The position numbers and the translations under genes are program-made. The notes under the pieces are model-generated. The model was given only the letters and a program-made list of their open reading frames with translations, was not told the DNA's origin and did not search any database. This document shows, in pieces, positions 20,392-34,830 of a stretch of 49,125 nucleotides of DNA (positions within the stretch are counted from its first letter, which is position 1; each line of letters starts with the position of its first letter). The DNA is taken from assembly GCA_020441665.1 (NCBI GenBank), contig JAGRLT010000072.1, forward strand, positions 1 through 49,125, given 5' to 3'. Source of the stretch: Nitratireductor sp. GTDB lineage: Bacteria; Pseudomonadota; Alphaproteobacteria; Rhizobiales; Rhizobiaceae.

Positions 20392-21195
20392 ATGGCGGAC
20401 CTGTCGGCATTCTCGCTCGAAGGCCGCGTGGCCCTCGTTACCGGCGGCGGGCGCGGGATCGGATTGTCCTTCGCCAAGGCACTGGCGAAAGCCGGAGCCG
20501 CACTTGTCATCAACGACTTCCGCGCCGACACCGCCGACGAGGCCTGTCACGCGGTGGAGGCGATGGGCGGCAAAGCGCGGCCCGCTGTGTTCGACGTGAC
20601 CGATTTCGACCGGCTGGAGGCGCATGTCGACGGCATCGCCAGGGATCTCGGCCGGCTCGACATCCTGGTGAACAATGCAGGCATCCTGATCCGCGCGCCA
20701 ATCGAAGACCACGGGATGCCGGATTTCACCCGCGTCATCGACACCAATCTCAATGCCGTCTACGCCGTGTCACGGGCATGTGCCCGGCCGATGAAGGCAC
20801 AGGGCGGCGGCCGCATCATCAACGTCGGCTCGGTCATGTCGATCTCGTCCCGTCCCGGCATCATCTCCTATGTCGCGGCAAAGCACGGCGTACTCGGCCT
20901 GACCCGTGGACTGGCCGCCGAACTGGGGCCTTACAACATCACCGTGAACGCCATCGGTCCGGGATACATCCTGACCGAGATGAACCGTCATGTGCTTGGA
21001 ACGCCTTTCGAACAGGCGGTGATCGACCGGACGCCCATGGCCCGATGGGCCTCCCCGGAAGAGTTGACCGGAACCGCCGTCTTCCTGGCATCCGACGCCG
21101 CCGGCTTCGTCACCGGCCAACTGCTGATGGTCGATGGCGGCATGACCAGCAATTCCATTCTCGTCGAGAGCGAGAATCTCGGAGCGTCAAGCTGA
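20392..21195 (+). CDS. SDR family oxidoreductase (gluconate 5-dehydrogenase-like)
   Basis: Classical short-chain dehydrogenase/reductase, 267 residues. The cofactor motif TGGGRGIG is at residues 17-24, NNAG at 94-97, catalytic Ser147 in NVGSVMS, and Tyr160/Lys164 in SYVAAKHG. INDFRAD after the second strand favours NAD(H). The order and spacing match gluconate/2-keto-gluconate type SDRs, which oxidise a secondary hydroxyl of a sugar acid. The ATG at 20392 has GAGGTGG seven bases upstream; an in-frame ATG at 20305 would add 29 unconserved residues. It is divergent from the hydrolase/amidohydrolase/Gfo-Idh operon and convergent with the LuxR gene. It could supply the missing dehydrogenase for the otn genes or work with the hydrolases; both are inference. 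Confidence 0.9.
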   Translation: MADLSAFSLEGRVALVTGGGRGIGLSFAKALAKAGAALVINDFRADTADEACHAVEAMGGKARPAVFDVTDFDRLEAHVDGIARDLGRLDILVNNAGILIRAPIEDHGMPDFTRVIDTNLNAVYAVSRACARPMKAQGGGRIINVGSVMSISSRPGIISYVAAKHGVLGLTRGLAAELGPYNITVNAIGPGYILTEMNRHVLGTPFEQAVIDRTPMARWASPEELTGTAVFLASDAAGFVTGQLLMVDGGMTSNSILVESENLGASS

Positions 21196-21236: not shown

Positions 21237-22094
21237 CTAAAGCCGGAAATTGAAATACTGGAGAAACAGTTCCCGTTCGGTCGTGATGTCGAGTTTCTGG
21301 TAGATCTTGCGCCTGTGGTTCTTGGTCGTGCCGACGGAAATGCCGAGCTTCGAGGCGATGGTGGCCGTCGGATATCCCGAAAGCACCAGTTGCACCAGTT
21401 CGCGTTCCCGCGGTGTCAGTTCGGGCCACAGCCCATCGGACAGAACGGGAGGGGCAGGGGCGGGCGCCTCGTCGCGGCTGCTTCCGTTCCGGCTGTCGGG
21501 CAGACGGGTGCGCAGGTCCAGGGCGTGCAGCGCTTCAATGGCGGGCAGGCGCTCGTTCAATGCGGCGATTTCGCTATTGCTGAAGCGCCGGGTCGAGCGG
21601 TCGAGAAAAATGCCGAGACACCAGTCGCCTCCGTCGGGAAGCAAGATGCCCACCTCGTCGCGGATCTGCGATTGCGCCAGAAACTCGGCAATATAGCGCC
21701 CGCGCCGGCTCTTCGCTGTTTCCAGCGACTTGAGCGGAACGACACCTTGCAACCGGTCCTTGCGCCAGCCTTCGTGGAAGGGATCGAAGACATAGTAATC
21801 GGCAAGATAGAGCTCGACCATCCGGTCGAAGAACCGGCGGTGGGAGACGAATTCGGGCGGCTCGGTCGCCGAGTACCGGGTGACGGTCACGATGTCATGC
21901 GGAATGCCCGCGCTCACGACCTCGATCAGCTCTTCGAGGTGATCGGGGGTTCCCGCAGCGGCAATGGCCCTGGCCATCGCATTCCATACTTTTCCTTGGG
22001 GCATTCCAGACAGCGCCAGACAGCGTATGCGTTCAAGTGGGTATGTCGGAGTGTCGGCGACCTCGGCTGCGACGTCACCCGTGCCTTTTGGCAC
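21237..22094 (-). CDS. LuxR family transcriptional regulator
   Basis: Up to 285 residues. The C-terminal 65 residues form a GerE/LuxR helix-turn-helix: LTPRERELVQLVLSGYPTAT then IASKLGISVGTTKNHRRKIY. The N-terminal part (LEELIEVVSAGIPHDIVTVT, then a Tyr-rich YLADYYVFDPFHEGW) looks like a GAF/PAS-like sensor; I do not see the residue pattern of acyl-homoserine-lactone binding domains. The start is uncertain: GTG at 22094 has no good ribosome site, and an internal ATG at 22004 is possible. It is divergent from the carboxylase operon with only 67 bases between if the GTG is used, so it probably controls that operon. An inverted repeat GTGCC-TTTT-GGCAC (22081-22094) covers its possible start. Confidence 0.85.
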   Translation of the reverse strand: MPKGTGDVAAEVADTPTYPLERIRCLALSGMPQGKVWNAMARAIAAAGTPDHLEELIEVVSAGIPHDIVTVTRYSATEPPEFVSHRRFFDRMVELYLADYYVFDPFHEGWRKDRLQGVVPLKSLETAKSRRGRYIAEFLAQSQIRDEVGILLPDGGDWCLGIFLDRSTRRFSNSEIAALNERLPAIEALHALDLRTRLPDSRNGSSRDEAPAPAPPVLSDGLWPELTPRERELVQLVLSGYPTATIASKLGISVGTTKNHRRKIYQKLDITTERELFLQYFNFRL

Positions 22095-22161: not shown

Positions 22162-24336
22162 GTGTCACAACCATCCGCGCATCATCCCGCCAGCACGGCT
22201 CCCAGCGATGCCCGACCGATCGTGATCGGCATCGATGCCGGTGGCACGATGACCGATACGATCCTGGTGGACCGGCATGGCAACTTCAAGATCGGCAAGT
22301 CGGCGACCACACCGAAGAACGAATCCGAGGGCTTCTTCGCCTCGGCGGAAGACGCTGCCGAAGCCTGGGGTATCGAGATAGGAGAGCTCTTCTCCGGCGT
22401 CGACGTGGTGCTCTATTCGGGCACCGGCATGCTGAACACGCTGCTTTCGCGCACCGGCCGCAAGCTCGGCCTGATCACCACCAAGGGGCTCGAGGACATG
22501 ATCCTGATGGGCCGCGGCTTGCAGGCCTGGGCGGATTATTCCTATGCCGACCGGCTGCATGCGGTGACACACCACCACCCCGATCCGCTGGTGCCCCGAC
22601 GCAGAACCCATGGCGTGACGGAGCGTATCGATCAGTTCGGCGATGTCATCCTGCCGCTTTACGAGCACGAGGCGCGTGCCGCCGCCCGCAAACTGATCGA
22701 AGACGAGGTCGATGCGATCTGCATCATGACCATCTTCTCGCATGTCAATCCGGCACATGAGAAGCGCATCGCCGAGATATGTCAGGAAGAGGTTGCGGCC
22801 GCGAACGCGCCGGTCAGGGTCTATGCCAGCCATGAAATCCGCCCGGTGATCCGCGAACAGTCGCGGCTCAACTCGGTGTTGATCGAAGCTTATGCGACGG
22901 CGCGCGGCCGCGAGCAGCTTGCCGGAATCGAGAAGATTTCGCGGGCAAGCGGCTTTAGATACGGCGTGCAGACGCTGCTTTCCTTCGGCGGGCTGACATC
23001 CATCCATCATCCCCGCCTGCACGAGACGATGATCTCCGGCCCGATCGGCGGCATATTGGGGGCTGCCTATGTCGGCGAGCTGATCGGCAATGACAGCCTG
23101 ATCTGTTCCGACATGGGCGGCACGTCTTTCGACATGGGCGTCATCACGCGGGGCCAGACCCGGATCGAGAACGAGCCGCTGATGGATCGTTTCAAGCTGA
23201 ACGTGCCGACCCTGCATCTCGACACGATCGGTGCCGGTGCGGGCATGATCCTCAAGGTCGATCCGCTGACCAGGAAGATATCGCTCGGCCCCGAAAGCGC
23301 TGGCTCCGACCCCGGTCCGATTGCCTTCGCGAAGGGCGGAACGGAGCCGACCATCGCCGATTGCGATGCGATCCTCGGGCGGCTCAATCCGGATTACTTT
23401 CTCGGTGGCAAGGTCAAGTTGCAGGTCGACAAGGCCCGCGCGGCTTTCAAGGAGAAATGCGCCGACGTGCTGGGCGTCGGTGTCGAGGAGGCGGCGGAAG
23501 GCATGATCGAGATGCTGGAGGCCGATGCCAACAACGCGCTGCGCCGCGTCATCTCCGGCCAGGGCATCCATCCCTCGGAGTTCACGCTGCTTTCCTATGG
23601 CGGCTCCGGGCCGCTGCATCTCGCCGGCTGCGCGCGCGGTATCGGCTTCAAGGACATCATCACCTTCCAGTTCGCCGCCGCCTTCTCGGCCTTCGGCTGC
23701 ACCACGGCCGACTACATGCGCCGCCATTCGGTCTCGACGCAGATCGATATTCCAGCCCAATGCGATGACGACGCGCTGAGCGACTTCGGCGCGCGCATCT
23801 CCTCGGTCTGGGAAGAGTTGCGGCTGCGCGCGGTCGAGGAGATGGTTGGCGATGGCCACACCGTCGAGAAGGTCCGTACACGGCCCTTCCTGATGATGCG
23901 TTACACCGGGCAGCTTGAAGACGTTGAAGTGGCTGCGCCGCTGGACACCATAACCGGCCCCGACGAGATGCGTCGCGTCATTGCTGAGTTCGAAGAGGTG
24001 TATGCCAAGATGAACCACCGGGTCAGCCGCTATGGCGAGGCCGGCTTCACCGTCACCGAGCTCGGCCTGACGGCGACCGCGGAAAAGGTCAAGCCGCTGC
24101 TGGTCCGCCGCCCGCTGGGGTCTTCCGATCCGGCTCCGGCAATCAAGGGCGCGCGCGATGCCTATATCGGCGGCCGCTGGCACAAGGCCACGCTCTACGA
24201 GATGGACTGGTTGCAGCCGGGCCATGAGATCACGGGGCCGGCCATTGTCGAGCATCCCGCAACCACGCTGGTCGTTCATCCCGGAGATCGTGTCTTCGTC
24301 GATGAATGGACCCTGCTTCACTACAACTTTGCTTGA
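22162..24336 (+). CDS. Acetone carboxylase-like beta subunit (hydantoinase/oxoprolinase A family)
   Basis: 724 residues, ASKHA-fold ATPase of the HyuA/AcxA family. In acetone carboxylase this subunit uses ATP to activate bicarbonate and ketone. The first phosphate loop is GIDAGGTMTD (residues 23-32). DMGGTSFDMGVITRG in the middle is the second phosphate motif, followed by DTIGAGAGMILKVDPLTRKI, typical of the family, and SYGGSGPLHLAG in the C-terminal third. Length fits AcxA (about 717) more than short HyuA. GTG start at 22162 with AGGGAG upstream. It is the first gene of an operon whose order (beta, alpha, gamma) equals acxABC of Xanthobacter. Presence of the gamma gene argues for a carboxylase rather than N-methylhydantoinase. 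Substrate may differ from acetone; see the alpha subunit. Confidence 0.88.
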   Translation: MSQPSAHHPASTAPSDARPIVIGIDAGGTMTDTILVDRHGNFKIGKSATTPKNESEGFFASAEDAAEAWGIEIGELFSGVDVVLYSGTGMLNTLLSRTGRKLGLITTKGLEDMILMGRGLQAWADYSYADRLHAVTHHHPDPLVPRRRTHGVTERIDQFGDVILPLYEHEARAAARKLIEDEVDAICIMTIFSHVNPAHEKRIAEICQEEVAAANAPVRVYASHEIRPVIREQSRLNSVLIEAYATARGREQLAGIEKISRASGFRYGVQTLLSFGGLTSIHHPRLHETMISGPIGGILGAAYVGELIGNDSLICSDMGGTSFDMGVITRGQTRIENEPLMDRFKLNVPTLHLDTIGAGAGMILKVDPLTRKISLGPESAGSDPGPIAFAKGGTEPTIADCDAILGRLNPDYFLGGKVKLQVDKARAAFKEKCADVLGVGVEEAAEGMIEMLEADANNALRRVISGQGIHPSEFTLLSYGGSGPLHLAGCARGIGFKDIITFQFAAAFSAFGCTTADYMRRHSVSTQIDIPAQCDDDALSDFGARISSVWEELRLRAVEEMVGDGHTVEKVRTRPFLMMRYTGQLEDVEVAAPLDTITGPDEMRRVIAEFEEVYAKMNHRVSRYGEAGFTVTELGLTATAEKVKPLLVRRPLGSSDPAPAIKGARDAYIGGRWHKATLYEMDWLQPGHEITGPAIVEHPATTLVVHPGDRVFVDEWTLLHYNFA

Positions 24337-24347
24337 GGTCGCCTGCC

Positions 24348-26543
24348 ATGCTGGACAAAAGCCGGACAGTCTTTCCGCTGCGTGACCGCCTGCTCGAATC
24401 CGAGCGGTTGATGGAGCAGACCGGGTGTTACGATGGGGTCACCGAGTTGTGCCTGCGCCGCGAGGATCCGCTGAAGTTCGAGACGCTGCACACCAAGCTG
24501 CGGGCCGCCTGCGTGTCGGCGCGCGAAATGGCGCGGCGCATTTCCGCCTCGCCCGGCGTGCGCGAGGTCGGTGAAATGGTCGTGGCGATCTACACGCCGG
24601 AAGGCGACGCCATCGCGCTGTCGAACGGCATCATGGTGCATGTTCACACCATGAGCCGTTTCATCAAATGGATGATCCGCAACGGCTATGAGGAGGCGCC
24701 CGGCATCGCCGACGGCGATATCTTCGCCAACAACGACGCCTTCATCGGCACCGTGCAGGTGCCCGATGTGATGGACGTCATGCCGATCTTTCATTCCGGC
24801 AGGCTCGTCGGCTGGGTCGGCGCGGTCTGCCACGAACTGGAGGCAGGCGGAATTACCCCCGGTGGCGATGTCTGTCTGGCACAGGAACGCTTTACCGAGG
24901 GGCTGTTTGTCTGCGCCGAGAAGGTTGGCCACAACGATGAATTGCGCCGCGACTACGTCATCCGCTGCGAGCGCAATCTGCGCATGCCGATCTACTGGGT
25001 GCTTGACGAGAAGGCCAAGGTTGCCTCGTGCATCGACATGCGCGAAAGCGTCAAGGCGCTGATCGACGAGATTGGCGTGGACTACTGGGAGAAGCTTTCC
25101 AAGGAATTCATCGAGGAAGGGCGCCGTGCCCAGCTCGCGCGGACCCGGCAACTGACCGTACCCGGAATTTACCGCGGCCACACCTTCTACGGCCATGTCA
25201 CCGAGGGCAAGCCCGGCTTTCAGCCGCTGGGACCGGCTGACTGGCTCTACAACATTCCACTGGAAATGGAGATCGGGACCGACGGCAAGATCACCCTCGA
25301 CTTCGAAGGTACCCAGCCATGGGGCTACCATTCGATGAACTGCACGCCTGCCGGCATGGATGGCGGCATGTTCGTGACGCTGACCCAGCACATGAACTTC
25401 GAGGGGCTGGTCAATGACGGCGCCTGGATGGCGACGGAACTGAAGCTGCCGGAAGGAACCTGGACCAATCCCGACAACGAGCAGGCCGCCACGGCGACGT
25501 CCTGGGCACTGCTGCTTCCAGCTTACGGGGTTTTCCAGCGGATGCTGTCGCGCTCCTTCGTGGCGCGCGGTTTCGTCGAGGAAGCCTTTGTCGGCCAGGT
25601 TAATTCGCCGATGATCGAGATGGGGGGCGAAAGCCAGTATGGCACGCAGTTCGGCATGGCGCATTTCGAATGCGCTGCCGCGGGTTCCGGCGCGCTGGCG
25701 ATCAAGGACGGGCTGGATACCGCCTATGTCGGCTGGAACCCCGAAAGCGACATGGGCAATATCGAGATCTGGGAACAGAGCATGCCGATGCTCTATATCG
25801 GTCGCGCCATCGTGCCCAATTCCGGTGGTGCCGGAAAATATCGCGGCGGCTGCTCGTTTGCCTCGACCTGGTTGCTGAACAGGACCGAGCACCTGCGGCT
25901 GGTCACCTCGGAGCATTCCAGCCGCGTCTTCGACAATGGCGGCATGTGCGGCGGCTATCCCGCGCCGACCTGTCAGAAGCACCGGGCCGTGCGGGGTTCC
26001 GATATCCATGAGCGCGCCGCCGCGGGTCTGCCGCTGGCGCATGCGCCGGGCACCGATCCGCTGCATTCGGACCTGGAGGTGCTGGGCGGGGAACAGATTC
26101 TGGTCGAGGGGCCCTACATCACCGCGCCGCACAAGGCGGGGGACGTGTTTACCCATTCCTACAATGGCGGCGGCGGCTATGGCGACGTTCTTGAACGCGA
26201 TCCCGCAAAGACGGCGTGGGATGTCGAGAACGGTTTCCTCACGCCGCAGGCGGCGGCCATCTTCGGCATCGTTCTCCGGGATGGCCTGGACGGCCGGCCG
26301 GAGCCCGATCTGGAAGCGACCGAGCGGCGGCGCGCGGAGATGCGGGCCGAGCGCATTGCGCGTGCGGTTCCGGTTTCGGAATGGATGGCGCGGGAGCGGC
26401 TGCGCATCGAGAAGGCCGATTTCGCGCCGGAAGTTCGCAACATGTTTGCCAGCGCGATGCGGCTCTCACAGAAATTCTCCGATGAGTTCAGCAGGTTCTG
26501 GGGCGTCGACGGCAAGGCCATATTCCTTGGAGGCAGCAAGTGA
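24348..26543 (+). CDS. Acetone carboxylase-like alpha subunit (hydantoinase B family), Mn-site His replaced by Gln
   Basis: 731 residues, HyuB/AcxB family, the carboxylating subunit of acetone carboxylase-type enzymes. Family hallmarks are SASPGVREVGEMVVAIYTPE, the block HVHTMSRFIKWMIRNGYE and DGDIFANNDAFIG (residues 122-134). In Xanthobacter AcxB, from memory of its structure, Mn is held by His150, Asp153 and His175. The same spacing (3 and 22) gives Gln137 (GTVQVPD), Asp140 and His162 (AVCHELE) here, so the first ligand is Gln. The rest is well conserved, including WGYHSMNCTPAGMDGGMFV, and the frame is intact. The start at 24348 begins 11 bases after the beta-subunit stop with GAGGT upstream. 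The change suggests a different metal, ligand geometry or substrate rather than loss of function. Confidence 0.88.
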   Translation: MLDKSRTVFPLRDRLLESERLMEQTGCYDGVTELCLRREDPLKFETLHTKLRAACVSAREMARRISASPGVREVGEMVVAIYTPEGDAIALSNGIMVHVHTMSRFIKWMIRNGYEEAPGIADGDIFANNDAFIGTVQVPDVMDVMPIFHSGRLVGWVGAVCHELEAGGITPGGDVCLAQERFTEGLFVCAEKVGHNDELRRDYVIRCERNLRMPIYWVLDEKAKVASCIDMRESVKALIDEIGVDYWEKLSKEFIEEGRRAQLARTRQLTVPGIYRGHTFYGHVTEGKPGFQPLGPADWLYNIPLEMEIGTDGKITLDFEGTQPWGYHSMNCTPAGMDGGMFVTLTQHMNFEGLVNDGAWMATELKLPEGTWTNPDNEQAATATSWALLLPAYGVFQRMLSRSFVARGFVEEAFVGQVNSPMIEMGGESQYGTQFGMAHFECAAAGSGALAIKDGLDTAYVGWNPESDMGNIEIWEQSMPMLYIGRAIVPNSGGAGKYRGGCSFASTWLLNRTEHLRLVTSEHSSRVFDNGGMCGGYPAPTCQKHRAVRGSDIHERAAAGLPLAHAPGTDPLHSDLEVLGGEQILVEGPYITAPHKAGDVFTHSYNGGGGYGDVLERDPAKTAWDVENGFLTPQAAAIFGIVLRDGLDGRPEPDLEATERRRAEMRAERIARAVPVSEWMARERLRIEKADFAPEVRNMFASAMRLSQKFSDEFSRFWGVDGKAIFLGGSK

Positions 26544-27034
26544 CCACCTATAGCAAAGAAGTCATCGCGGATCTGGTCGCCGGCAGGCTGCCCTGGCCGC
26601 ACACGCGGCGCATCATGAGCGCCTACAAGGATGACGACCGGTTCTTCAAATATGTCGAGGTGCTGCAGGACCGCGTCGCCTGGGACCATCGCATCCTGCT
26701 GCCGGTCGGCGATCACCTCTTCATCACCGACGGTGCCGACGGCCGGGTGACGCGCTGCGAATGCGGCCATTCCTTCGGCGACTACCGGAGCAACTGGAAA
26801 CTCTCGGCGTCGATCATCGTGCGCGACAGCGAGGAAGCGCTGCGCGAGATCTATCCCAACAGCGATCTGCCCGATCCTGCCTGGATGGAGATCCGCGAGT
26901 TCATCTGTCCCGAATGCGGCACGATGCACGAGGTGGAGGCCGCCGCGCCGGGTTATCCGGTGGTGCATGATTTCGAACCCGATCTGGAAGGCTTCTATCG
27001 CGACTGGCTCGACCGGCCGCTGGAACAGGCATGA
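26540..27034 (+). CDS. Acetone carboxylase-like gamma subunit
   Basis: 164 residues, matching the small gamma subunit specific to acetone/acetophenone-type carboxylases (AcxC, Acetone_carb_G). Two zinc-binding Cys pairs are visible: Cys73/Cys75 in RCECGHSFGDYRSNWKLSA and Cys123/Cys126 in REFICPECGTMHEVEA. The C-terminal VVHDFEPDLEGFYRDWL is also characteristic of the family. The GTG start overlaps the alpha-subunit stop by four bases (GTGA), with GGAGG upstream. This subunit is not found with plain hydantoinases or 5-oxoprolinases, so it is the best evidence that the enzyme is a carboxylase. Confidence 0.9.
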   Translation: MTTYSKEVIADLVAGRLPWPHTRRIMSAYKDDDRFFKYVEVLQDRVAWDHRILLPVGDHLFITDGADGRVTRCECGHSFGDYRSNWKLSASIIVRDSEEALREIYPNSDLPDPAWMEIREFICPECGTMHEVEAAAPGYPVVHDFEPDLEGFYRDWLDRPLEQA

Positions 27035-27037
27035 TCC

Positions 27038-27808
27038 ATGACACGCTGTAGCGGCAAGATCGCGATGGTGACCGGTGCCGGCAAGGGGCTCGGCCAGGCC
27101 GCCTGCATGCGCCTCGCCGAGGCAGGCGCACGGCTGATCTGCACCGATATCGAACCCGCCCTTGCCGCTCGGACCGCCGAGGGGATCCGTGCCGCGGGCG
27201 GCGAGGCCGTGTCGTTCGAACACGACGTTGCCGATCCGGTTGCCTGGGATACCGTCATGGAAGCGGCGCTTGCACATTTCGGCGGGCTCGACGTCATGGT
27301 CAACAATGCGGGTATCGCGATCGCCGCGAACATCGAGACGACGAGCATCGAGCAGTGGCGGCGGACCATGGCGGTCGATCTCGACAGCGTCTTCTATGGC
27401 TGCAAGGCCGCTATTGCCACCATGAAAGGGCGCGGTGGGGGATCGATCATCAATCTTTCGTCGATCGACGGCGTCATCGGGGAAGCGGAACTGGCCGCCT
27501 ATTGTGCGGCCAAGGGCGGGGTGCGGACATTGACCAAGTCCGTCGCCGTCCATTGCGGCGAGCGGGGCTACCGTATCCGCTGCAACTCGATCCATCCCGG
27601 CTATATCATGACGCCGCAGACCGAGGGCTATCTGCGTGACCTCGGAGCCTTCGACGAGGAGGTGGCGGCCGCGACACGGCGCCATCCCATCGGGTGTCTC
27701 GGCGAGCCGGACGATGTCGCGATGATGGTGGTCTATCTCGCCTCCGATGAAGCGAAATTCGTGACAGGGGCGGAAATGGTGGTCGATGGAGGGTATCTTG
27801 CAGTCTGA
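27038..27808 (+). CDS. SDR family oxidoreductase (first of the carboxylase operon)
   Basis: 256 residues, classical SDR. TGAGKGLG at residues 12-19, acidic Asp37 in CTDIE (NAD preference), NNAG 89-92, Ser142 in NLSSIDG, Tyr155 and Lys159 in YCAAKGG. It begins 3 bases after the gamma subunit stop and so belongs to the carboxylase operon. A natural role is oxidation of a secondary alcohol to the ketone that the carboxylase uses. With the SDR that follows it may form a stereospecific pair for two alcohol enantiomers, as known for R- and S-hydroxypropyl-coenzyme M dehydrogenases; this is inference from arrangement only. Confidence 0.9.
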   Translation: MTRCSGKIAMVTGAGKGLGQAACMRLAEAGARLICTDIEPALAARTAEGIRAAGGEAVSFEHDVADPVAWDTVMEAALAHFGGLDVMVNNAGIAIAANIETTSIEQWRRTMAVDLDSVFYGCKAAIATMKGRGGGSIINLSSIDGVIGEAELAAYCAAKGGVRTLTKSVAVHCGERGYRIRCNSIHPGYIMTPQTEGYLRDLGAFDEEVAAATRRHPIGCLGEPDDVAMMVVYLASDEAKFVTGAEMVVDGGYLAV

Positions 27809-27862
27809 ATCCATTCTCCGGGTAGCGTGCGGCGTGGCAGGGCTTGTTGGAGGACCGTCGTG

Positions 27863-28687
27863 ATGACCGATCTGACCGGACGCTGCGCCGTGATTACCGG
27901 CGGGCTGACAGGGCAGGGGCTGGCGATCGCCGAGGCATTGGCCGCCGCCGGCGCCGCCGTTGCCGTCGGCTCCTATCTCGGGGCATCCGGCAGGCAGGGA
28001 GATGCCGCCGCCTATCTCGAGCCGGAAGGCGTGTCGAACGTCCGCGCCCTGCTGGAGAGGCATGGGGGATGCGTTCACGCCGGACATCTGGACGTGCGCG
28101 ACACGGGCGCTGTCCGCGCTTTCCTGGATGCCGCCGAAGCCAGATGCGGCCCTGCGGATATCCTCGTCAATGCAGCCGGCACGACGGCCGAGCAGCCCGT
28201 CTGCGGCCATCCCGATTCGCTCTGGGAGAAGATACTCGACACCAACCTGACCGGCGCCTTCAGGATGACGCGTGAACTGCTGCCCGGCATGATCGGGCGC
28301 AAGTGGGGACGGGTGATCAATATCGGTTCCACCGCGGCAATGGTGGGGTGGAAGGACAATCCCGCCTATTGCGCGTCGAAATCCGGTCTTCTGGGCCTGA
28401 CCCGCTGTGTTGCGCTGGAAGGCGCCCCGCACGGGGTCACCTGCGTCATGATCTCTCCCACATGGGTCGAAACCGAGTTGATGCACCGCAACGTGACCCA
28501 GGTGATGGCCGCCGAAGGCAGGGGACGCACCCTGGAGGAGGGCATGGCCGAAATCGCCGGTCAGAACCCGCAGAAGCGCCTGATCCAGCCGGAGGAGATC
28601 GCCGCGACGGCGCTGTTTCTGTGTTCCGAAGAGGCCAGGGGAATCACCATGGAAAACCTTCAGATAACCGGAGGCGCCCTTTGGTGA
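27863..28687 (+). CDS. SDR family oxidoreductase (second of the carboxylase operon)
   Basis: 274 residues. The nucleotide loop is TGGLTGQG (12-19), a slightly altered GxxxGxG; NAAG stands in place of NNAG (103-106); Ser156 in NIGSTAAMVGW, Tyr169 and Lys173 in YCASKSG. An extension after the third strand (GASGRQGDAAAYLEPEGVSN) is longer than in the preceding SDR, and a larger substrate loop lies at ELMHRNVTQVMAAEGRGRT. The ATG at 27863 has GGAGG eight bases upstream. It follows the first SDR by 54 bases and precedes the transporter binding protein. It probably acts on the same or a related alcohol. Low similarity between the two SDRs argues against recent duplication. Confidence 0.9.
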   Translation: MTDLTGRCAVITGGLTGQGLAIAEALAAAGAAVAVGSYLGASGRQGDAAAYLEPEGVSNVRALLERHGGCVHAGHLDVRDTGAVRAFLDAAEARCGPADILVNAAGTTAEQPVCGHPDSLWEKILDTNLTGAFRMTRELLPGMIGRKWGRVINIGSTAAMVGWKDNPAYCASKSGLLGLTRCVALEGAPHGVTCVMISPTWVETELMHRNVTQVMAAEGRGRTLEEGMAEIAGQNPQKRLIQPEEIAATALFLCSEEARGITMENLQITGGALW

Positions 28688-28754
28688 CAGCTATGTAGTT
28701 CAGGCGTTGGAACCCCATCATTGTATGGGAAAAACCCTTGAAAGGGAGAACAAG

Positions 28755-29684
28755 ATGAAAGCAGTGAATGCATTATGGGCAGGTTGCATCGGTCTGAGCC
28801 TGATTGCCGCGCCCGCCGCCGCCGCCGAGATGGGCGATACGGCCGAGCCCATCAAACTGGCTGTTCTGGAATGGACGGGCGCGCATATTTCGACCCATGT
28901 CGCCGGGCAGCTTCTCGAAAAGCTCGGATACAAGGTGGAGTATGTCACCGCCGGCAATTTCCCGCAGTTTTCCGGCCTGGCGGACGGTACGCTGAGCGCC
29001 TCGGTGGAGATATGGCTCAACAATGTGGGCGATATCTATCCCAAGGTCCTGGAGGCCGGCCAGATTCAGAACATCGGCCTGCTCGGATTGCAGACCCGCG
29101 AGGGCTGGATCTATCCGAAGTTCATGGAAGAAGTCTGCCCCGGCCTGCCCGACTGGGCGGCGATGGAGAAGCCGGAATGCATCCAGGCGCTGATGACGCC
29201 GGAGACGGCGCCGAATGCCCGCTTCCTCGACTACCCGGCTGACTGGGGGTCGCGCGCCGCAACCATCCTGGCCGATAACGACATGCCCTATACGGCCGTT
29301 CCGGCGGGGTCCGAGGGGGCGCTGGTCGCTGAACTGGAATCGTCCGCGGCGGCCAAGACGCCGTTGATGATGATGTTCTGGGCGCCCCATTACGCACTGG
29401 CCGAGACCGAAGTCGGCTGGGTGACGATGCCGCCCTGCAAGGAAGACAATAACGAGCACTGCATCACGCCGCCCGATGTCGCCAAGGTGGTGTGGTCCGG
29501 CTTTGAAGAAAAGTGGCCGGCGGCGTATACCTTCCTCAGGGAGTTCCAGTTGGGCGCCGACGACCAGCAGCAGATGATGCTCAAGGTCGACAAGAATGGC
29601 GAGGATCTCGACGCGGTGGCCGCTGACTGGATTTCCGGCAATGAGGGAGTCTGGAAACCTTGGATCGAAGCAGCCGGAGAATAG
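28755..29684 (+). CDS. Glycine betaine/choline-type ABC transporter substrate-binding protein
   Basis: Periplasmic binding protein of the OpuAC/ProX class, 309 residues. The signal peptide (KAVNALWAGCIGLSLIAA core) ends near residue 24 (AAAA-EM). The mature protein has the family start IKLAVLEWTGAHISTHVAG and several Trp/Tyr-bearing stretches (ASVEIWLNNVGD, REGWIYPKF, LDYPADWGSR, MMMFWAPHYAL), consistent with an aromatic box that binds a quaternary ammonium group. GAAAGGGAGAA precedes the start. It is followed by its ATPase and permease genes and preceded by the carboxylase and SDR genes with no terminator. The ligand could be choline, betaine, carnitine or a relative; I cannot choose from sequence alone. 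Confidence 0.88.
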   Translation: MKAVNALWAGCIGLSLIAAPAAAAEMGDTAEPIKLAVLEWTGAHISTHVAGQLLEKLGYKVEYVTAGNFPQFSGLADGTLSASVEIWLNNVGDIYPKVLEAGQIQNIGLLGLQTREGWIYPKFMEEVCPGLPDWAAMEKPECIQALMTPETAPNARFLDYPADWGSRAATILADNDMPYTAVPAGSEGALVAELESSAAAKTPLMMMFWAPHYALAETEVGWVTMPPCKEDNNEHCITPPDVAKVVWSGFEEKWPAAYTFLREFQLGADDQQQMMLKVDKNGEDLDAVAADWISGNEGVWKPWIEAAGE

Positions 29685-29742
29685 CCGACGACACCCCACG
29701 CACACCGGCTGGCGCCATACGACGAATATCCGGCCGCGCGCG

Positions 29743-30810
29743 ATGAGGGTCGCGGATGCGAAAGCGCCGGATGGGCGCGCGGTAAAACTCTCCTGCCGGC
29801 ATGTCTGGAAAGTCTTCGGTGCCGGCGGGCGGGCGTATCCGCCTGATCCGGGGGATTCGTCGGCCGCAAGCGTCGACGCCATGCGCCAGTCGGGTGTCAT
29901 TCCGGCGGTCGTGGATGCGAGCTTCGACGTTCACGCCGGCGAGATCTTTGTCATCATGGGACTGAGCGGCTCGGGCAAGTCGACGCTCATCCGCTGCCTG
30001 TCGCGTCTCATCGAGCCATCTGCCGGACAGGTGATGCTCGACGGACAGGATCTGCTCGCCGCGAGCCGCTCGGATCTCGTCGCATTGCGCCGGCGCACCA
30101 TGGGCATGGTGTTCCAGAGTTTCGGCCTTTTGCCCCATCTCACCGTGCTGGAGAATGTCGGCTTTCCGCTGAGGATGCACGGCAATGCGCGCGCGAAATG
30201 GGAAGCGCGCGCCCGCGAGATGATTGCCCAGGTAGGTCTGGAGGGGCGGGAATTCGCCTATCCGAGCCAGCTTTCCGGCGGACAGCAGCAGCGCGTCGGC
30301 ATCGCCCGCTCGCTTGCCGCCGATCCGGAACTCTGGTTCCTCGATGAGCCGTTCTCGGCGCTCGATCCGCTGATCCGCCGACAGATGCAGGACGAGTTCC
30401 TGCGGCTCCAGAAGATGTTGCACAAGACGATCGTCTTCATCACCCATGACATTGCCGAAGCGTTTCGCCTTGCCGACCGGGTGGCGATCATGCGTGCGGG
30501 CCGGATCGTGCAGATCGGCCGCCCGGCCGAGATCGTGCTCACCCCGGCGGACGACTATGTTGCGCGTTTCGTGGAGGATACGCCGGTCCTGAGGGTCATC
30601 CGCGCCGCCGACCTGGCCGAGCCGGCATCCGGCCCGCTGCCCGATGCCGAGGTTGAGGCGGATGCCGTTCTGGAACAGGTGCTGCCGCGCTTCTTCGATG
30701 GCACCGCCGCCCTGCGCATTCGCGGTGAGGCGCGCACCCTGCGGGCGAGCCGGGTCTTCGACCTGATCCGGCGCATGCCGTCGGCCGATGCCGCCATGGC
30801 CGCGCTGTGA
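29743..30810 (+). CDS. Glycine betaine/choline-type ABC transporter ATP-binding protein
   Basis: ProV/OpuAA-type ATPase, 355 residues. Walker A GLSGSGKST (73-81), VFQSFGLLPHLTVLENVGF, signature [14 protein letters not shown] (from 177), Walker B LWFLDEPFSALDP and H-loop FITHDIAEAF. The long N-terminal stretch before Walker A (HVWKVFG ... MRQSGVIPAVVDASF) matches the ProV subgroup. The C-terminal part is short, with no clear CBS domain pair, so osmotic gating of the OpuA kind is unlikely. The start at 29743 has a weak ribosome site. The stop overlaps the permease start (GTGA). Confidence 0.9.
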   Translation: MRVADAKAPDGRAVKLSCRHVWKVFGAGGRAYPPDPGDSSAASVDAMRQSGVIPAVVDASFDVHAGEIFVIMGLSGSGKSTLIRCLSRLIEPSAGQVMLDGQDLLAASRSDLVALRRRTMGMVFQSFGLLPHLTVLENVGFPLRMHGNARAKWEARAREMIAQVGLEGREFAYPSQLSGGQQQRVGIARSLAADPELWFLDEPFSALDPLIRRQMQDEFLRLQKMLHKTIVFITHDIAEAFRLADRVAIMRAGRIVQIGRPAEIVLTPADDYVARFVEDTPVLRVIRAADLAEPASGPLPDAEVEADAVLEQVLPRFFDGTAALRIRGEARTLRASRVFDLIRRMPSADAAMAAL

Positions 30811-32927
30811 GCACGGCCGCAACGATGTCGCAGCTTCGTCGCGGGGCATCGCTGCCGCCGGCTCTTTGGCCCTGGTTCGGTGTTCTTGCGCTTCTCGGTT
30901 TCTGTCTGGCGCTGCGCCCGGTCGCGCCGTGGCTCGCTATCTGGCCGGACGACTGGATGCTGCCGCTTTCCGGTTGGATAAATGCCGTTGCCGATGCGGT
31001 GGTGCCGGTCGTCCAGCCGTATTTCCGGGCGGTTTCCACGGCTCTCTCCGTGCCGATGCAGGCCATTCGCCAGGCTCTGATCTGGTTGCCGTGGCCGGCC
31101 GCTGCCCTGATGATCTGTGCCGCCGCGGCCGGCGCGGGTGGCGTGCGGCTGGTTGCCGTGGCCGCTGCTGCGGTGGTCTACGTGCTTCTGGCCGATTACT
31201 GGATCGAGGCCATGAACACGCTCGCCCTCGTCATCCTTGCGGTGCCCCTTTCGGTCGCGGCCGGCTTTGCGATCGGGGTGATGGCGTGGCGCTGGCCGCA
31301 ACTTGGGCCGGTCGTAACGGCGGCGCTCGACCTCATGCAGACCGTCCCGGCCTTCGCCTACCTTATTCCGCTGCTGCTGCTGTTCGGATTCGGACCGGTG
31401 GTCGGACTGATCGCCAGCGCGATCTATGCCATACCGCCGATGGTGCGCAATGTCATGCTCGGCCTGGAGCGCGTGCCGTCCGAGGTCACCGAGGCCGGCC
31501 TGATGGCCGGTTGCAACCCGCGCCAGTCCTTCTGGCACGTAACCCTGCCGACCGCCCTGCCGCAGCTTCTCGTCGGCGTCAACCAGACCACCATGGCCGC
31601 CCTGTCCATGGTTATCGTGGCGGCGATCATTGGCGGGTTCCAGGATATCGGCTGGGAGGTTCTCTCCTCCATGCGCAAGGCGGAATTCGGACAGAGTATT
31701 CTTTCCGGGCTGGTCATCGCGCTGATGGCCATTCTGGCCGACCGCATTACCCGTGGTTTCGCCGACCGCGAGGCGGGCGGCGCCGGGGGCAGGCTGGCGG
31801 GGCGCACCATCATGGTCATGTTCGCGGTGTCCCTGGGGCTGGGCTTCCTGCTGCGTTTCTTCCTGGCCGGGGGGGCGCTCATGCCCGGCGGTGACGTGAC
31901 ACGACAGTATGTCACGGTGCTCAACCAATGGGTTCTGGCCCTGGTTCAGGATCATGCCGCCCTGTTTGCCGCGATCAAGAACGGCGTTCTCTACGCGTTT
32001 CTTCTGCCGCTGAGGATCGGTGTTTCGGGGGCCGCCACGCCGTATCTCTGGGGATTTGTCATGACGCCGGGGCTGATCGCGCTCTATGGCGTCGTCTGCG
32101 CCGCGCTGGCGGGATGGGCATTCGTCTCAGGACGCTGGCGGCTGGCCGTATTCGTCATCATGGCAGGCACATTGCTCTTCACCGGCCTGCAGGCGTTTCC
32201 CTGGCCGGTCTTCGTGCTGGGGCTTGCCCTGATGGCCTATCAGTCGATGGGCTGGAAGATGGCTGTCTTCGTTGCCGCGGGAACCTGCCTGATCCTGGCG
32301 AACGGCCTGTGGGCAGCGCTGGTGCAATCGCTCTATCTTTGCGTGGTGGCGGTTCTCCTGTCGGGGTTGATCGGCGCTGCACTCGGTTTGTGGGCGGCAT
32401 CGAGCGACCGGGTCTCCGCGGCTGTCCGGCCGGTCTGCGACGCGCTGCAGACCATGCCGCAATTCGTTTTCCTGATTCCGGCCCTGATGTTCTTCAAGGT
32501 CGGCGAATTCACCGCCCTGATCGCCATCGTTCTGTACGCGGTCGTTCCTCCGATCCGCTATGTCGAGCACGGACTGCGCCATGTCGATGCCGGTGTCATG
32601 GAGGCGGTCACCCAGATCGGCACCACGCCCTGGCAGAGACTCTGGCATGTGCGTCTTCCGCTGGCGCTGCCGGTGATCATGCTCGGCGTCAACCAGACGA
32701 TCATGGCGGCGCTGTCCATGCTGGCCATCGCCGCGCTGGTGGGAACCCGCGATCTCGGCCAACAGGTCTATGTCGCGCTCGGCAAGGCCGATGCGGGAAT
32801 GGGGCTGGTTGCCGGATTGTCGATCGCCTTCATCGCCATCGTTTCCGACCGTCTGATCCATGCCTGGATCGGCTCGGGCTTTGCGCCTGAAGATGGCGCC
32901 GGGAGCCTCGATGGCGGACGGGGGTAG
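30807..32927 (+). CDS. Glycine betaine/choline-type ABC transporter permease with two fused permease domains
   Basis: 706 residues, about twice the usual ProW/OpuAB length. Two BPD_transp_1 domains are visible. The first (roughly residues 130-315) has LDLMQTVPAFAYLIPLLLLF, coupling loop EVTEAGLMAGCNPRQSFWHV and GVNQTTMAALSMVIVAAIIG. The second (roughly 500-690) has CDALQTMPQFVFLIPALMFF, coupling loop GVMEAVTQIGTTPWQRLWHV and GVNQTIMAALSMLAIAALVG. The repeated blocks show an internal duplication and fusion, so one polypeptide supplies the pseudo-dimer that normally needs two copies. Extra helices lie between them. GTG start overlapping the ATPase stop; last gene of the operon. Confidence 0.92.
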   Translation: MSTAATMSQLRRGASLPPALWPWFGVLALLGFCLALRPVAPWLAIWPDDWMLPLSGWINAVADAVVPVVQPYFRAVSTALSVPMQAIRQALIWLPWPAAALMICAAAAGAGGVRLVAVAAAAVVYVLLADYWIEAMNTLALVILAVPLSVAAGFAIGVMAWRWPQLGPVVTAALDLMQTVPAFAYLIPLLLLFGFGPVVGLIASAIYAIPPMVRNVMLGLERVPSEVTEAGLMAGCNPRQSFWHVTLPTALPQLLVGVNQTTMAALSMVIVAAIIGGFQDIGWEVLSSMRKAEFGQSILSGLVIALMAILADRITRGFADREAGGAGGRLAGRTIMVMFAVSLGLGFLLRFFLAGGALMPGGDVTRQYVTVLNQWVLALVQDHAALFAAIKNGVLYAFLLPLRIGVSGAATPYLWGFVMTPGLIALYGVVCAALAGWAFVSGRWRLAVFVIMAGTLLFTGLQAFPWPVFVLGLALMAYQSMGWKMAVFVAAGTCLILANGLWAALVQSLYLCVVAVLLSGLIGAALGLWAASSDRVSAAVRPVCDALQTMPQFVFLIPALMFFKVGEFTALIAIVLYAVVPPIRYVEHGLRHVDAGVMEAVTQIGTTPWQRLWHVRLPLALPVIMLGVNQTIMAALSMLAIAALVGTRDLGQQVYVALGKADAGMGLVAGLSIAFIAIVSDRLIHAWIGSGFAPEDGAGSLDGGRG

Positions 32928-32965: not shown

Positions 32966-33388
32966 TCAGCGCTTTGCAGTCCACGGGTCGATGACCGGAA
33001 TGCCCGCCGCGTCGAAGGCGCTGGCATCGCGTGTCGCAACCGTAAATCCATGGGCGGTTGCGATGGCGGCGATATAGCCGTCCGACGTGGGAAAGCCCTT
33101 GCCCGCCCTGCGGGCCGCGACGGCAAGATCGGCATAGTGGCGGGCGGCGTCGGTATCGAAGGCGAGGATTCTGCCCTCGAACAGCAGCAGCATCCCGTCG
33201 AGGGTGGTGGCGAGCTTCTGCTTGCGCCATCCATCCGGCAGCGCGCCGATGCCGAACAGCAGTTCCGCGACGGTGACGCTGGAGATGTAGAGGGTTTCGG
33301 CGGCCTGTTCGTCCAGCCAATCGCGCATAGCGGGGTCCGGCTCCGGCTTCATCGCCTCGGAGACGACATTGGTATCCAGAACGATCAT
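32966..33388 (-). CDS. fitB: PIN-domain toxin, FitB/VapC family
   Basis: 140-residue PIN-domain ribonuclease-type toxin. The acidic residues that hold Mg are in place: Asp5 (VLDTNVVSE), Glu42 (TVAELLFG), Asp103 (TSDGYIAA) and Asp121 (ATRDASAF). Overall sequence resembles FitB of Neisseria, including the C-terminal VIDPW. The ATG overlaps the antitoxin stop by four bases (ATGA), which couples translation. The operator upstream of fitA (33670-33697) is also of FitA type. An intact pair; no sign of decay. Confidence 0.9.
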   Translation of the reverse strand: MIVLDTNVVSEAMKPEPDPAMRDWLDEQAAETLYISSVTVAELLFGIGALPDGWRKQKLATTLDGMLLLFEGRILAFDTDAARHYADLAVAARRAGKGFPTSDGYIAAIATAHGFTVATRDASAFDAAGIPVIDPWTAKR

Positions 33389-33639
33389 TCAAAGCTCATC
33401 GGCGTGGCAGGCGTCTTGTCGCTTGCCTGTTCCAGTGCCTCGAAATCGGCATTGGTCAGCCCGGCCTTGCGGCTCAACGCCGACAGGGCGGAGCCGAGGC
33501 GCAGACGCTCGGCTGGACGCACCGCCGATTCCAGAATGTCGCGCATTTCCGCCTCGGCGCTGCGGCCATGATGGGCCGCGCGCACCTTGAGGGCGCGATG
33601 GGTCGCGTCGGAGAGATTGCGAATGGTGACGGCAGGCAT
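33385..33639 (-). CDS. fitA: Antitoxin, FitA/VapB family (ribbon-helix-helix)
   Basis: 84 residues. The N-terminal ribbon-helix-helix (AVTIRNLSDATHRALKVRAA) is followed by GRSAEAEMRDILESAV, as in FitA proteins that bind the promoter and wrap the toxin through the C-terminal tail. The start at 33639 is chosen by homology; an in-frame upstream extension to 33873 would run through the operator and has no family support. It precedes and overlaps the toxin gene. Autoregulation is indicated by the inverted repeat 31 bases upstream. Confidence 0.9.
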   Translation of the reverse strand: MPAVTIRNLSDATHRALKVRAAHHGRSAEAEMRDILESAVRPAERLRLGSALSALSRKAGLTNADFEALEQASDKTPATPMSFE

Positions 33640-33669
33640 CTGATGGCGTCTCCGGTCAAGCGATGGCTG

Positions 33670-33697
33670 TGATAGCAATATAGGAAATATGCTATCA
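33670..33697. promoter_or_regulatory. FitA-type operator, TGATAGCA-N12-TGCTATCA
   Basis: Exact 8-bp inverted arms, TGATAGCA (33670-33677) and TGCTATCA (33690-33697), with a 12-base AT-rich spacer, 31 bases upstream of the fitA start. The arms and spacer length recall the gonococcal FitAB operator, which from memory uses the same octamers with a 12-base spacer in the opposite order. Confidence 0.8.
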
Positions 33698-33857
33698 ACT
33701 GACAAGGTGCGACCGTCTATCTGGCGGGTTGGCTGACGCCGGCAGCCTGTCGCCATACCCCGCGATGGCGGCGGGCACGGCGCAGACAAGTACCGCGCTC
33801 CGCGACGGTCGGTTTGAGTTGTTCTGTTCGCCGAGGGAAAAGCCGTTTCGAAAGAAG

Positions 33858-33873
33858 ATATATGATGCATCAT
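33858..33873. promoter_or_regulatory. Candidate operator, ATATATGATGCATCAT
   Basis: A perfect 12-bp palindrome (33862-33873) with a leading ATAT sits immediately upstream of TTGACT (33877-33882), 102 bases before the transketolase ATG. It is the sister of the element at 20197-20212. Confidence 0.5.
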
Positions 33874-33974
33874 TTCTTGACTCGGTAATGGGACCGTGCG
33901 AAGAACCGTGTTGGCGCGGGTGGGCGCCTCGCCATGCGGCGATTGCGTTGTTTTTCACCCGGAGGAGGGCAGGC

Positions 33975-34829
33975 ATGGAAAACACCCGGCTTTCGAAAGA
34001 GCGGATCGGGTTGCTCGAGGAACGGGCGCAATTCGTGCGGCTGGAGACCCTGCGCCTGATTTCGATCGCCAAGGTCGGCCACTATTCCTCCGTGTTCTCC
34101 TGTGCCGAGATTTTCGCCGCGCTCTATTACGACGTCATGAACATCAGGCGTGGCGAACCCGGCTGGGAGGGCCGCGACCGCTTTCTGATGGGAAAGGGCC
34201 ATGCCGCGGTCGGGCTGTTTCCGATCCTTGCGGATCTGGGTTTCTTCGACAGGTCCTGGCTGGACGATTACACGCGGCTCGGCAGCCCGCTCGGCGATCA
34301 TCCGGACATGCGCAAGGTTCCGGGCGTCGATTTCAGTTCCGGTTCCATTGGCCATGCCCTTTCCAACGGTGTGGGCATGGTTCATGGCGCGCGGATGCGC
34401 GGTCTCCGGTTCGATGTCTTTGTGATGCTGGGCGATGGCGAGATGCAGGAGGGGCAGGTCTGGGAGGCGGCGCTCAATGCGTCAAGCCATGGCCTGTCCA
34501 ATCTGATCGCGATCATAGACCGCAATGGCTATCAGCTCGATGGCAAGGTCGATGACGTTATTGCGGTCGAGCCGCTCGACGAGAAGTGGCGGGCCTTCGG
34601 CTGGGAGGTTCACGAGGTCGATGGCCACGACGTTGTCGCGCTGACGGAATTGTTGCGCCGGGTCAAGGCCGACAAGACGCGCGGGAAACCGTGCTGCGTG
34701 ATCGCCAGGACGCTCAAGGGTAAGGGCATCGACTTCATGGAGAACGAGCCCGGATGGCATCTGGGATACCTTTCGCCTGAAGATACGCAACGGGCACGGC
34801 AGGCGATTCTCGCTCAGGGAGGACAATGA
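33975..34829 (+). CDS. Transketolase, N-terminal (thiamine diphosphate-binding) subunit
   Basis: 284 residues. Split transketolases carry the pyrophosphate-binding domain on this subunit and the pyrimidine-binding domain on the next. Visible features: VGHYSSVFSCAEIFAALYYD (catalytic His region), GKGHAAVGLFPILADLGF, the Mg/ThDP motif GDGEMQEGQVWEA (153-165) and IIDRNGYQLDG. The start at 33975 follows GGAGGAGGG. The partner gene begins one base after the stop. In two-subunit enzymes of this sort the substrate is often an unusual keto sugar (for example apulose 4-phosphate or a sulfo-sugar), so it need not be the pentose-phosphate enzyme. Confidence 0.92.
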   Translation: MENTRLSKERIGLLEERAQFVRLETLRLISIAKVGHYSSVFSCAEIFAALYYDVMNIRRGEPGWEGRDRFLMGKGHAAVGLFPILADLGFFDRSWLDDYTRLGSPLGDHPDMRKVPGVDFSSGSIGHALSNGVGMVHGARMRGLRFDVFVMLGDGEMQEGQVWEAALNASSHGLSNLIAIIDRNGYQLDGKVDDVIAVEPLDEKWRAFGWEVHEVDGHDVVALTELLRRVKADKTRGKPCCVIARTLKGKGIDFMENEPGWHLGYLSPEDTQRARQAILAQGGQ

Positions 34830-34830
34830 C

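Follow-up and report, generated by a model that had tools for sequence, protein, structure and literature searches.

To our knowledge, the biotin-free, ATP-dependent ketone carboxylases that have been characterised act on acetone and acetophenone. Both ketones are named as substrates of these enzymes in the accessible text of PMC5543143 and PMC8453981. Here we describe a gene cluster at positions 22,162 to 32,927 of a 49,125-nucleotide stretch of Nitratireductor sp. DNA (contig JAGRLT010000072.1 of assembly GCA_020441665.1; hereafter the window), which encodes homologues of all three subunits of acetone carboxylase (AcxABC) together with two short-chain dehydrogenases/reductases (SDRs) and an importer of the quaternary-amine type. 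In our reading, to which we assign a probability of roughly 0.6, it is an operon for the catabolism of a trimethylammonium compound, in which an alcohol would be converted to acetonyl-trimethylammonium, and this ketone, by carboxylation, to 3-dehydrocarnitine. We take the pathway to be real, conserved and, as far as is apparent, not yet assigned; support is good for the trimethylammonium class of the compound and moderate for the product.

The proposed route would start with the uptake, by the ABC importer, of a choline-sized secondary trimethylammonium alcohol, such as 2-hydroxypropyl-trimethylammonium (beta-methylcholine), or of its ketone. SDR2, aided by SDR1, would oxidise the alcohol to acetonyl-trimethylammonium (trimethylaminoacetone), and the AcxABC-like enzyme would join bicarbonate to the methyl carbon of this ketone at the expense of ATP, yielding 3-dehydrocarnitine. 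The enol and bicarbonate would be phosphorylated in AcxA and joined in AcxB, phosphorylation followed by joining being what the accessible text of PMC5543143 proposes for acetone carboxylase. Finally, a beta-keto acid cleavage enzyme (BKACE) would convert 3-dehydrocarnitine and acetyl-CoA to betainyl-CoA and acetoacetate. 3-Dehydrocarnitine and the BKACE step would be shared with the carnitine breakdown of Pseudomonas and Sinorhizobium, which runs via carnitine dehydrogenase and BKACE (PMC12482172, in its accessible part); in contrast to that route, the keto acid would arise here by carboxylation of a ketone and not by oxidation of carnitine. We infer the exact substrate, carboxylation as the reaction, the order of the steps and the roles of the SDRs from gene content and sequence comparison.

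Gene order and a separate carboxylase clade

The cluster and its divergent regulator comprise the following genes.

21237..22094, minus strand: LuxR-type regulator (GerE HTH; PF00196, 45.9 bits), divergent from the operon
22162..24336 (start may be 22222), plus strand: AcxA-like subunit, corresponding to acetone carboxylase beta, nucleotide-binding (PF05378, PF01968, PF19278)
24348..26543 (start may be 24306), plus strand: AcxB-like subunit, corresponding to acetone carboxylase alpha, with the metal site (PF02538, 293.7 bits)
26540..27034, plus strand: AcxC-like gamma subunit, with all four Zn-site Cys (PF08882, 154.5 bits)
27038..27808, plus strand: SDR1; its nearest solved relatives are R-specific alcohol dehydrogenases (215 bits to 8kcn)
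27863..28687 (start may be 27827), plus strand: SDR2, a probable secondary-alcohol dehydrogenase resembling 3-hydroxybutyrate dehydrogenases
28725..29684 (start may be 28707), plus strand: TmoX-like periplasmic binding protein of the OpuAC type (PF04069, 161.8 bits; best solved relative TmoX, 4xz6, 142.7 bits)
29743..30810, plus strand: ABC ATPase of the betaine/proline/choline family (PF00005; TIGR01186 proV, 325.4 bits, slightly under the cut-off of 326.6)
30807..32927 (start may be 30825), plus strand: fused ABC permease with two permease domains (PF00528, BPD_transp_1, in two stretches)

The open reading frames (ORFs) and domain matches bear out the gene content and coordinates given in an earlier note on this DNA, namely three carboxylase subunits, two SDRs, a complete betaine/choline-type importer and a divergent LuxR gene. 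The importer, which is TmoX-like, has its full set of parts: a binding protein of the OpuAC type, an ATPase resembling ProV (its model match being the narrow miss listed above) and a BPD permease. No intergenic gap in the plus-strand run of 22162-32927 exceeds 58 bp, and two gene pairs overlap. A single transcript is plausible, because terminator-like sites between 21900 and 33300 are fewer than in shuffled sequence (3 against a mean of 6.5). As the genes for LuxR, AcxA, AcxB, AcxC and SDR2 recur together in relatives, their grouping is evidently more than chance. Beyond the LuxR gene, a third SDR is encoded on the plus strand at 20392-21195, and SDRs 28-43% identical lie near the LuxR gene in some relatives. 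Downstream of the operon, at 32966-35805, a minus-strand PIN-domain gene is followed by a transketolase split over two adjacent ORFs, for its N-terminal and C-terminal halves.

Among solved proteins, acetone carboxylase is the closest to both large subunits of the window enzyme (alpha, 533 bits to 5m45_A; beta, 590 bits to 5m45_B). The NCBIfam equivalog cut-offs for acetophenone carboxylase were missed by a wide margin (422.8 against 1500, 182.6 against 1500 and 39.5 against 250 bits), and the NCBIfam caprolactamase models matched the window subunits far under their cut-offs. Acetophenone carboxylase (Apc) belongs to the same superfamily and carboxylates a larger ketone, but unlike the window enzyme it combines two nucleotide-binding subunits with an epsilon protein, as described in the accessible parts of PMC8453981 and PMC5214803. 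In an alpha-subunit tree of 46 rows, built by a quick method, a very long branch with an SH-aLRT support of 100 separated 35 rows, including the window enzyme, from 11 others. The homologues across that branch, which we call canonical-type, include four loci (L031-L034) with alpha subunits 39-42% identical to that of the window, one of which (L032) matches acetone carboxylase 5svb at 762 bits; the window enzyme did not group with them but lay on the opposite side of the branch. Judged from these comparisons, the carboxylase belongs to a separate clade of ATP-dependent ketone carboxylases.

The clade also differs at both catalytic centres. Clade counts below use 82 distinct loci, two of an initial 84 (L179 and L180) having been dropped as identical to L093 and L095; a 95-row alignment that included duplicates was not used. 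According to the accessible text of PMC5543143, the metal ligands in the alpha subunit of the Xanthobacter autotrophicus enzyme (XaAC) are Glu89, His150, Asp153 and His175. The counterpart of His150 is Gln in 82/82 clade loci and His in 12/12 canonical-type loci. The counterparts of Asp153 and His175 are conserved throughout, and that of Glu89 is present in 81/82 clade loci, the remaining row being cut off, so that the clade has three of the four ligands of acetone carboxylase. In the window AcxB, counted from 24348, these are Glu76, Asp140 and His162, with Gln137 at the place of His150. In the nucleotide-binding subunit, the adenosine motif GxxPGP, a form reported for caprolactamase and its relatives (PMC8453981, accessible part), is complete in 81/81 clade rows (residues 381-386 of the window AcxA, counted from 22162) and in 0/12 canonical-type rows. 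The ATP phosphate motifs of acetone carboxylase are conserved in the clade, a gamma-subunit homologue is present in 81/82 loci, and the four Cys of its Zn site are present in 81/81 rows. In the gamma subunits of the canonical-type loci (L031-L034 and L171-L178), the Zn Cys were aligned to other residues in 3 to 7 of the 12 rows, which reflects either misalignment or real loss. Compared with AcxABC of X. autotrophicus (5m45/5svb), the window enzyme thus keeps the three homologous subunits, the ATP phosphate motifs, the Zn Cys and Glu89/Asp153/His175, whereas the Gln in place of alpha-His150, the GxxPGP motif, the separate clade, the quaternary-amine neighbours and the LuxR-type regulator set it apart.

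The clade spans proteobacteria, Bacillota and actinomycetes. In the family of the window organism, 12/297 genomes carry the clade enzyme (its own and 11 at 83-85% identity) and 4/297 carry a canonical-type one; in three other groups it is rare, with 2/299 genomes around Lentibacillus, 1/298 around Saccharopolyspora and 3/295 around a Rhodobacteraceae metagenome-assembled genome (MAG), each count including the starting genome. The best 80 of 101 loci in a scan of genome contigs were 65-91% identical, and their hosts include Mesorhizobium, Sinorhizobium, Shinella, Labrys, Rhodobacteraceae MAGs, a gammaproteobacterial MAG, Brevibacterium, Saccharopolyspora, Lentibacillus, Natribacillus and Oceanobacillus, among others. 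The enzyme is encoded on pSymB of the laboratory strain Sinorhizobium meliloti 1021 (NC_003078, 422151-424310), with the entire core cluster in locus L035; the annotated S. meliloti ml59 record contains it as well. SMb20413, a locus tag presumed to belong to the S. meliloti cluster, is named twice in one paper, where the RpoE2 regulon is described. AcxA of Mesorhizobium loti UFLA 01-765 (L115, 7866-8900) was matched by tblastn in several pieces, perhaps because of a frameshift or a sequencing error.

Trimethylammonium-related neighbours and their ligand pockets

The unusual part of the cluster is, by its gene content, the quaternary-amine importer. To compare loci, we counted as markers the genes for TmoX-like, ChoX, OpuAC, BCCT, choline-sulfatase and carnitine-type BKACE proteins. 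A marker was found in 46/82 clade loci (TmoX-like in 25, ChoX in 11, choline-sulfatase in 4, BCCT in 5, 3 of them with OpuAC, and BKACE alone in 1), or in 45/82 if BKACE is not counted, as opposed to one BCCT gene and no other marker in the 12 canonical-type loci. As an independent check, Pfam models were run on 13 canonical-type genomes: on the carboxylase contigs, some of which are short, OpuAC genes were absent within 240 kb of the carboxylase, and a single BCCT gene was present, roughly 8 kb from it. The earlier note had held that known acetone carboxylase clusters have neither such a transporter nor two SDRs. The importer is indeed unusual, but the statement is too strong for the SDRs, as an SDR 43-44% identical to SDR1, perhaps a 2-propanol dehydrogenase, is encoded upstream of the carboxylase in 3/12 canonical-type loci (L031, L032 and L033).

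The markers come from several gene families. All five ChoX-type proteins scanned score 443-483 bits with TIGR03414 (cut-off 379). In Labrys, a choline-sulfatase gene lies between those for AcxC and SDR2 (684.7 bits in the scanned L093, cut-off 433; two more by tblastn), and in the gammaproteobacterial MAG one lies upstream of SDR2-AcxABC (611.7 bits, same cut-off). A BCCT gene precedes AcxA in 5/5 Bacillota loci (four by Pfam, 488-497 bits, and the fifth by tblastn), with an OpuAC protein and an SDR encoded nearby in 3 of the 5. A linked permease in one of the two Saccharopolyspora loci, the one scanned, has as its best model that of trimethylamine N-oxide (TMAO) permease, at 175.6 bits against a cut-off of 690. 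A Rieske gene resembling glycine betaine monooxygenase in three Rhodobacteraceae MAGs (L100, L101, L103) was left unused, as it scored 148 bits against a cut-off of 670 in the one scanned. An NCS1-type permease gene (PF02133) is divergent from the carboxylase genes in Brevibacterium (L106, 5808-7424) and in an actinomycete MAG (L117, 5887-7563).

The neighbours of the carboxylase were counted in 65 loci of the Rhizobiales type (L038-L099 and L114-L116, a few of them from other alphaproteobacteria; 15 more distant loci were excluded). SDR2 is present in 64/65 and a LuxR homologue of at least 50% identity in 60/65, while the downstream slot varies, holding a TmoX-like importer and SDR1, a ChoX-type binding protein, or neither. 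SDR1 follows the importer type: it is present in 22/22 TmoX-type, 1/11 ChoX-type and 0/32 other loci. Three of the excluded loci (Rhodobacteraceae MAGs L100, L101, L103) have the TmoX-like importer and SDR2 without a close SDR1 homologue. Because SDR2 without SDR1 accompanies both the choline-sulfatase and this Rhodobacteraceae importer, SDR2 is more likely to be the alcohol dehydrogenase of the two; SDR1 may serve the other enantiomer. The solved structure nearest to SDR2 is PDB 9fe6. In D-3-hydroxybutyrate dehydrogenase, a His and a Lys before the catalytic Tyr hold the carboxylate of the substrate; aligned to 2q2q, SDR2 has Ala and Asn at these places, and we rejected the assignment of SDR2 as a 3-hydroxybutyrate or carnitine dehydrogenase since these loop residues are unlike those of 3-hydroxybutyrate dehydrogenase.

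The pockets of the binding proteins point to the same class of ligand. In TmoX, the binding protein of the TmoXWV importer of Ruegeria pomeroyi, four Trp and Glu131 hold TMAO, and Phe106 and Phe220 complete the cage (PMC8918994, accessible part). The window's binding protein shares the four Trp and the Glu of this cation box with TmoX, its closest solved relative, but differs in having Val for Phe106 and Met for Phe220, and in being encoded within a carboxylase operon. The same holds for the alignment of 28 clade rows (up to 3 cut off per site and at least one locus present twice): Trp and Glu are conserved wherever readable, Phe106 is replaced by Val (24) or Leu (3) and Phe220 by Met (25), and no readable row has the full TMAO pocket. 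As the Trp/Glu box is retained but both Phe are replaced, the ligand is likely to be a trimethylammonium compound larger than TMAO. Dimethylsulfoniopropionate (DMSP), the binding of which requires Tyr200 in DmpX (accessible part of PMC10030565), was dropped as a candidate ligand; the counterpart of that Tyr appears to be Met, as judged by eye without an alignment to DmpX.

Some relatives carry, in place of the window's TmoX-like protein, a ChoX-type one encoded after SDR2 (410 bits to S. meliloti ChoX, 2reg, in S. meliloti ml59), without a directly following ATPase or permease gene in two annotated records. The six choline contacts tested, taken from the accessible text of PMC8371380 on S. meliloti ChoX, are conserved in 18/18 rows of the ChoX type, drawn from 14 loci of which four are represented twice; a ligand resembling choline is therefore indicated.

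A probable link to carnitine breakdown

In two clade loci, BKACE is linked to the carboxylase. In the actinomycete MAG locus L117, a BKACE gene lies 33 bp downstream of AcxC, and in Lentibacillus (L107) one lies inside the carboxylase cluster. We call these BKACEs carnitine-type on account of their pairing with 3HCDH or carnitine-dehydrogenase-like genes: the Lentibacillus protein shares 91% identity with another BKACE of the same genome that abuts a 3HCDH gene, and that of L117 is 74% and 69% identical to the 3HCDH-adjacent BKACEs of Saccharopolyspora and Brevibacterium, respectively. The best model of the Saccharopolyspora 3HCDH is L-carnitine dehydrogenase (342 bits, below the cut-off).

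At the genome level, BKACE (PF05853) is present in 12/12 cluster-bearing genomes as opposed to 1/14 control genomes. Surroundings were fetched for 9 of the 12, and in 7 of these BKACE is paired with 3HCDH; in the other two, no 3HCDH match was found in the surroundings, and a BKACE is situated close to the end of a contig. The genome of the window itself has a BKACE gene adjoining that for carnitine 3-dehydrogenase (737 bits, cut-off 592). Carnitine dehydrogenase matches with E 1e-100 or better occur in 11/12 clade-positive genomes against 171/285 others of the family (Fisher p 0.022, uncorrected for relatedness); 138/297 family genomes exceed the cut-off of the model. In Mesorhizobium sp. ORS 3428, genes for 3HCDH, two SDRs, BKACE and a Rieske oxygenase lie near the carboxylase cluster (L089, 16754-21464); we excluded this block as evidence for carnitine breakdown because the BKACE in it matches the 3,5-dioxohexanoate type (486 bits, cut-off 430).

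Alternative explanations and significance

3-Dehydrocarnitine can lose CO2 spontaneously. If it did so during carnitine breakdown, trimethylaminoacetone would form, and the carboxylase could act in repair, restoring the CO2 for BKACE. Such a role is unlikely in our view, yet it is a close rival of the catabolic operon, because trimethylaminoacetone is a compound that PMC12482172, in its accessible part, reports in connection with the carnitine breakdown of Pseudomonas AK1 and Citrobacter. Moreover, the clade co-occurs with carnitine dehydrogenase and with BKACE, and many loci consist of the carboxylase and SDR2 without an importer. Repair would, however, leave the linked importers, the choline-sulfatase and the SDRs unexplained.

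A little less probable again is a substrate from which 3-dehydrocarnitine would not be formed, whether choline, betaine aldehyde or some other trimethylammonium compound. The conserved ChoX pocket, the choline-sulfatase of the Labrys and gammaproteobacterial clusters and the BCCT genes of the Bacillota loci would all fit it; on the other hand, oxidation of choline yields an aldehyde rather than a ketone, no betaine aldehyde dehydrogenase was found among the scanned part of the neighbours, and the BKACE neighbours indicate a beta-keto acid. The class of pathway in the earlier note, drawn there from a single stretch of DNA, comprises import of a quaternary-ammonium alcohol, oxidation by SDRs to a ketone and ATP-dependent carboxylation to a keto acid of the carnitine pathway. 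It is now supported independently, by comparison, through the unrelated quaternary-amine families, the BKACE neighbours, the conserved cation boxes and the BKACE and carnitine 3-dehydrogenase of the genome itself. The substrate named in the note (beta-methylcholine), the product and the use of one SDR per enantiomer are putative, and choline is still a candidate ligand.

We regard as improbable that the enzyme is a hydrolase of the hydantoinase/oxoprolinase superfamily, with a cyclic or amide-like quaternary substrate, and not a carboxylase. Its GxxPGP motif in the caprolactamase form (81/81 rows; PMC8453981, accessible part) and the one altered metal ligand would be consistent with hydrolysis, whereas the gamma homologue of the acetone carboxylase family in 81/82 loci (PF08882 in the window) and the proximity of alpha and beta to acetone carboxylase among solved structures speak against it. 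An ordinary acetone or butanone carboxylase with hitchhiking neighbours is the least probable of all: three subunits of the acetone carboxylase type and the SDR1-like SDRs near 3/12 canonical-type loci would fit, but the separate clade has fixed changes at both catalytic centres, and unrelated gene families repeatedly supply the same kind of neighbour.

Several observations weigh against the proposed trimethylammonium operon itself. The changed metal ligand could mean a different reaction, and the ChoX pocket looks like that of a choline binder, choline-sulfatase and BCCT likewise fitting choline, a primary alcohol. No marker was found in the fetched stretch of 36/82 clade loci, mostly Mesorhizobium loci with LuxR-AcxABC-SDR2 only and a few short contig ends; actinomycete loci have one in 1/4, and the marker queries were drawn from clade members, which biases the count toward the clade. 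The Bacillota OpuAC protein (L107) has aromatics at four sites, but Ser and Asp replace the polar contacts Asp45 and Asn156, and it scores 144 bits with the ChoX model against a cut-off of 379. As to carnitine, the adjacency of BKACE rests on two loci, no NCBIfam BKACE model scored above its cut-off for the BKACEs of the L107/L117 type, and the 3HCDH neighbour of the Lentibacillus paralogue reached 382 bits with its best model, L-carnitine dehydrogenase, against a cut-off of 414. Carnitine dehydrogenase is common in the family (182/297), so that its association with the clade is modest; it was not found in one clade-positive genome (G275, 85% complete), and no glycine betaine monooxygenase above the cut-off was found in the window's genome.

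Beyond the operon itself, we tentatively propose, at somewhat less than even odds, that the ATP-dependent ketone carboxylases have a third branch in this clade, whose metal site contains a Gln and which fixes bicarbonate onto acetonyl-trimethylammonium. Beta-methylcholine, and possibly its sulfate ester, would thereby enter carnitine catabolism through a CO2-fixing step. No published description of the pathway was found in the literature searched, which covered few subscription papers, and the matches listed there include no breakdown pathway for beta-methylcholine or its sulfate ester. If the proposal is true, a clade whose catalytic residues are altered and whose predicted substrate is charged would broaden the chemistry of ketone carboxylases. 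It would also give a function to genes that, in Sinorhizobium and Shinella, are annotated merely as hydantoinase/oxoprolinase, and would suggest how bacteria handle beta-methylcholine and trimethylaminoacetone.

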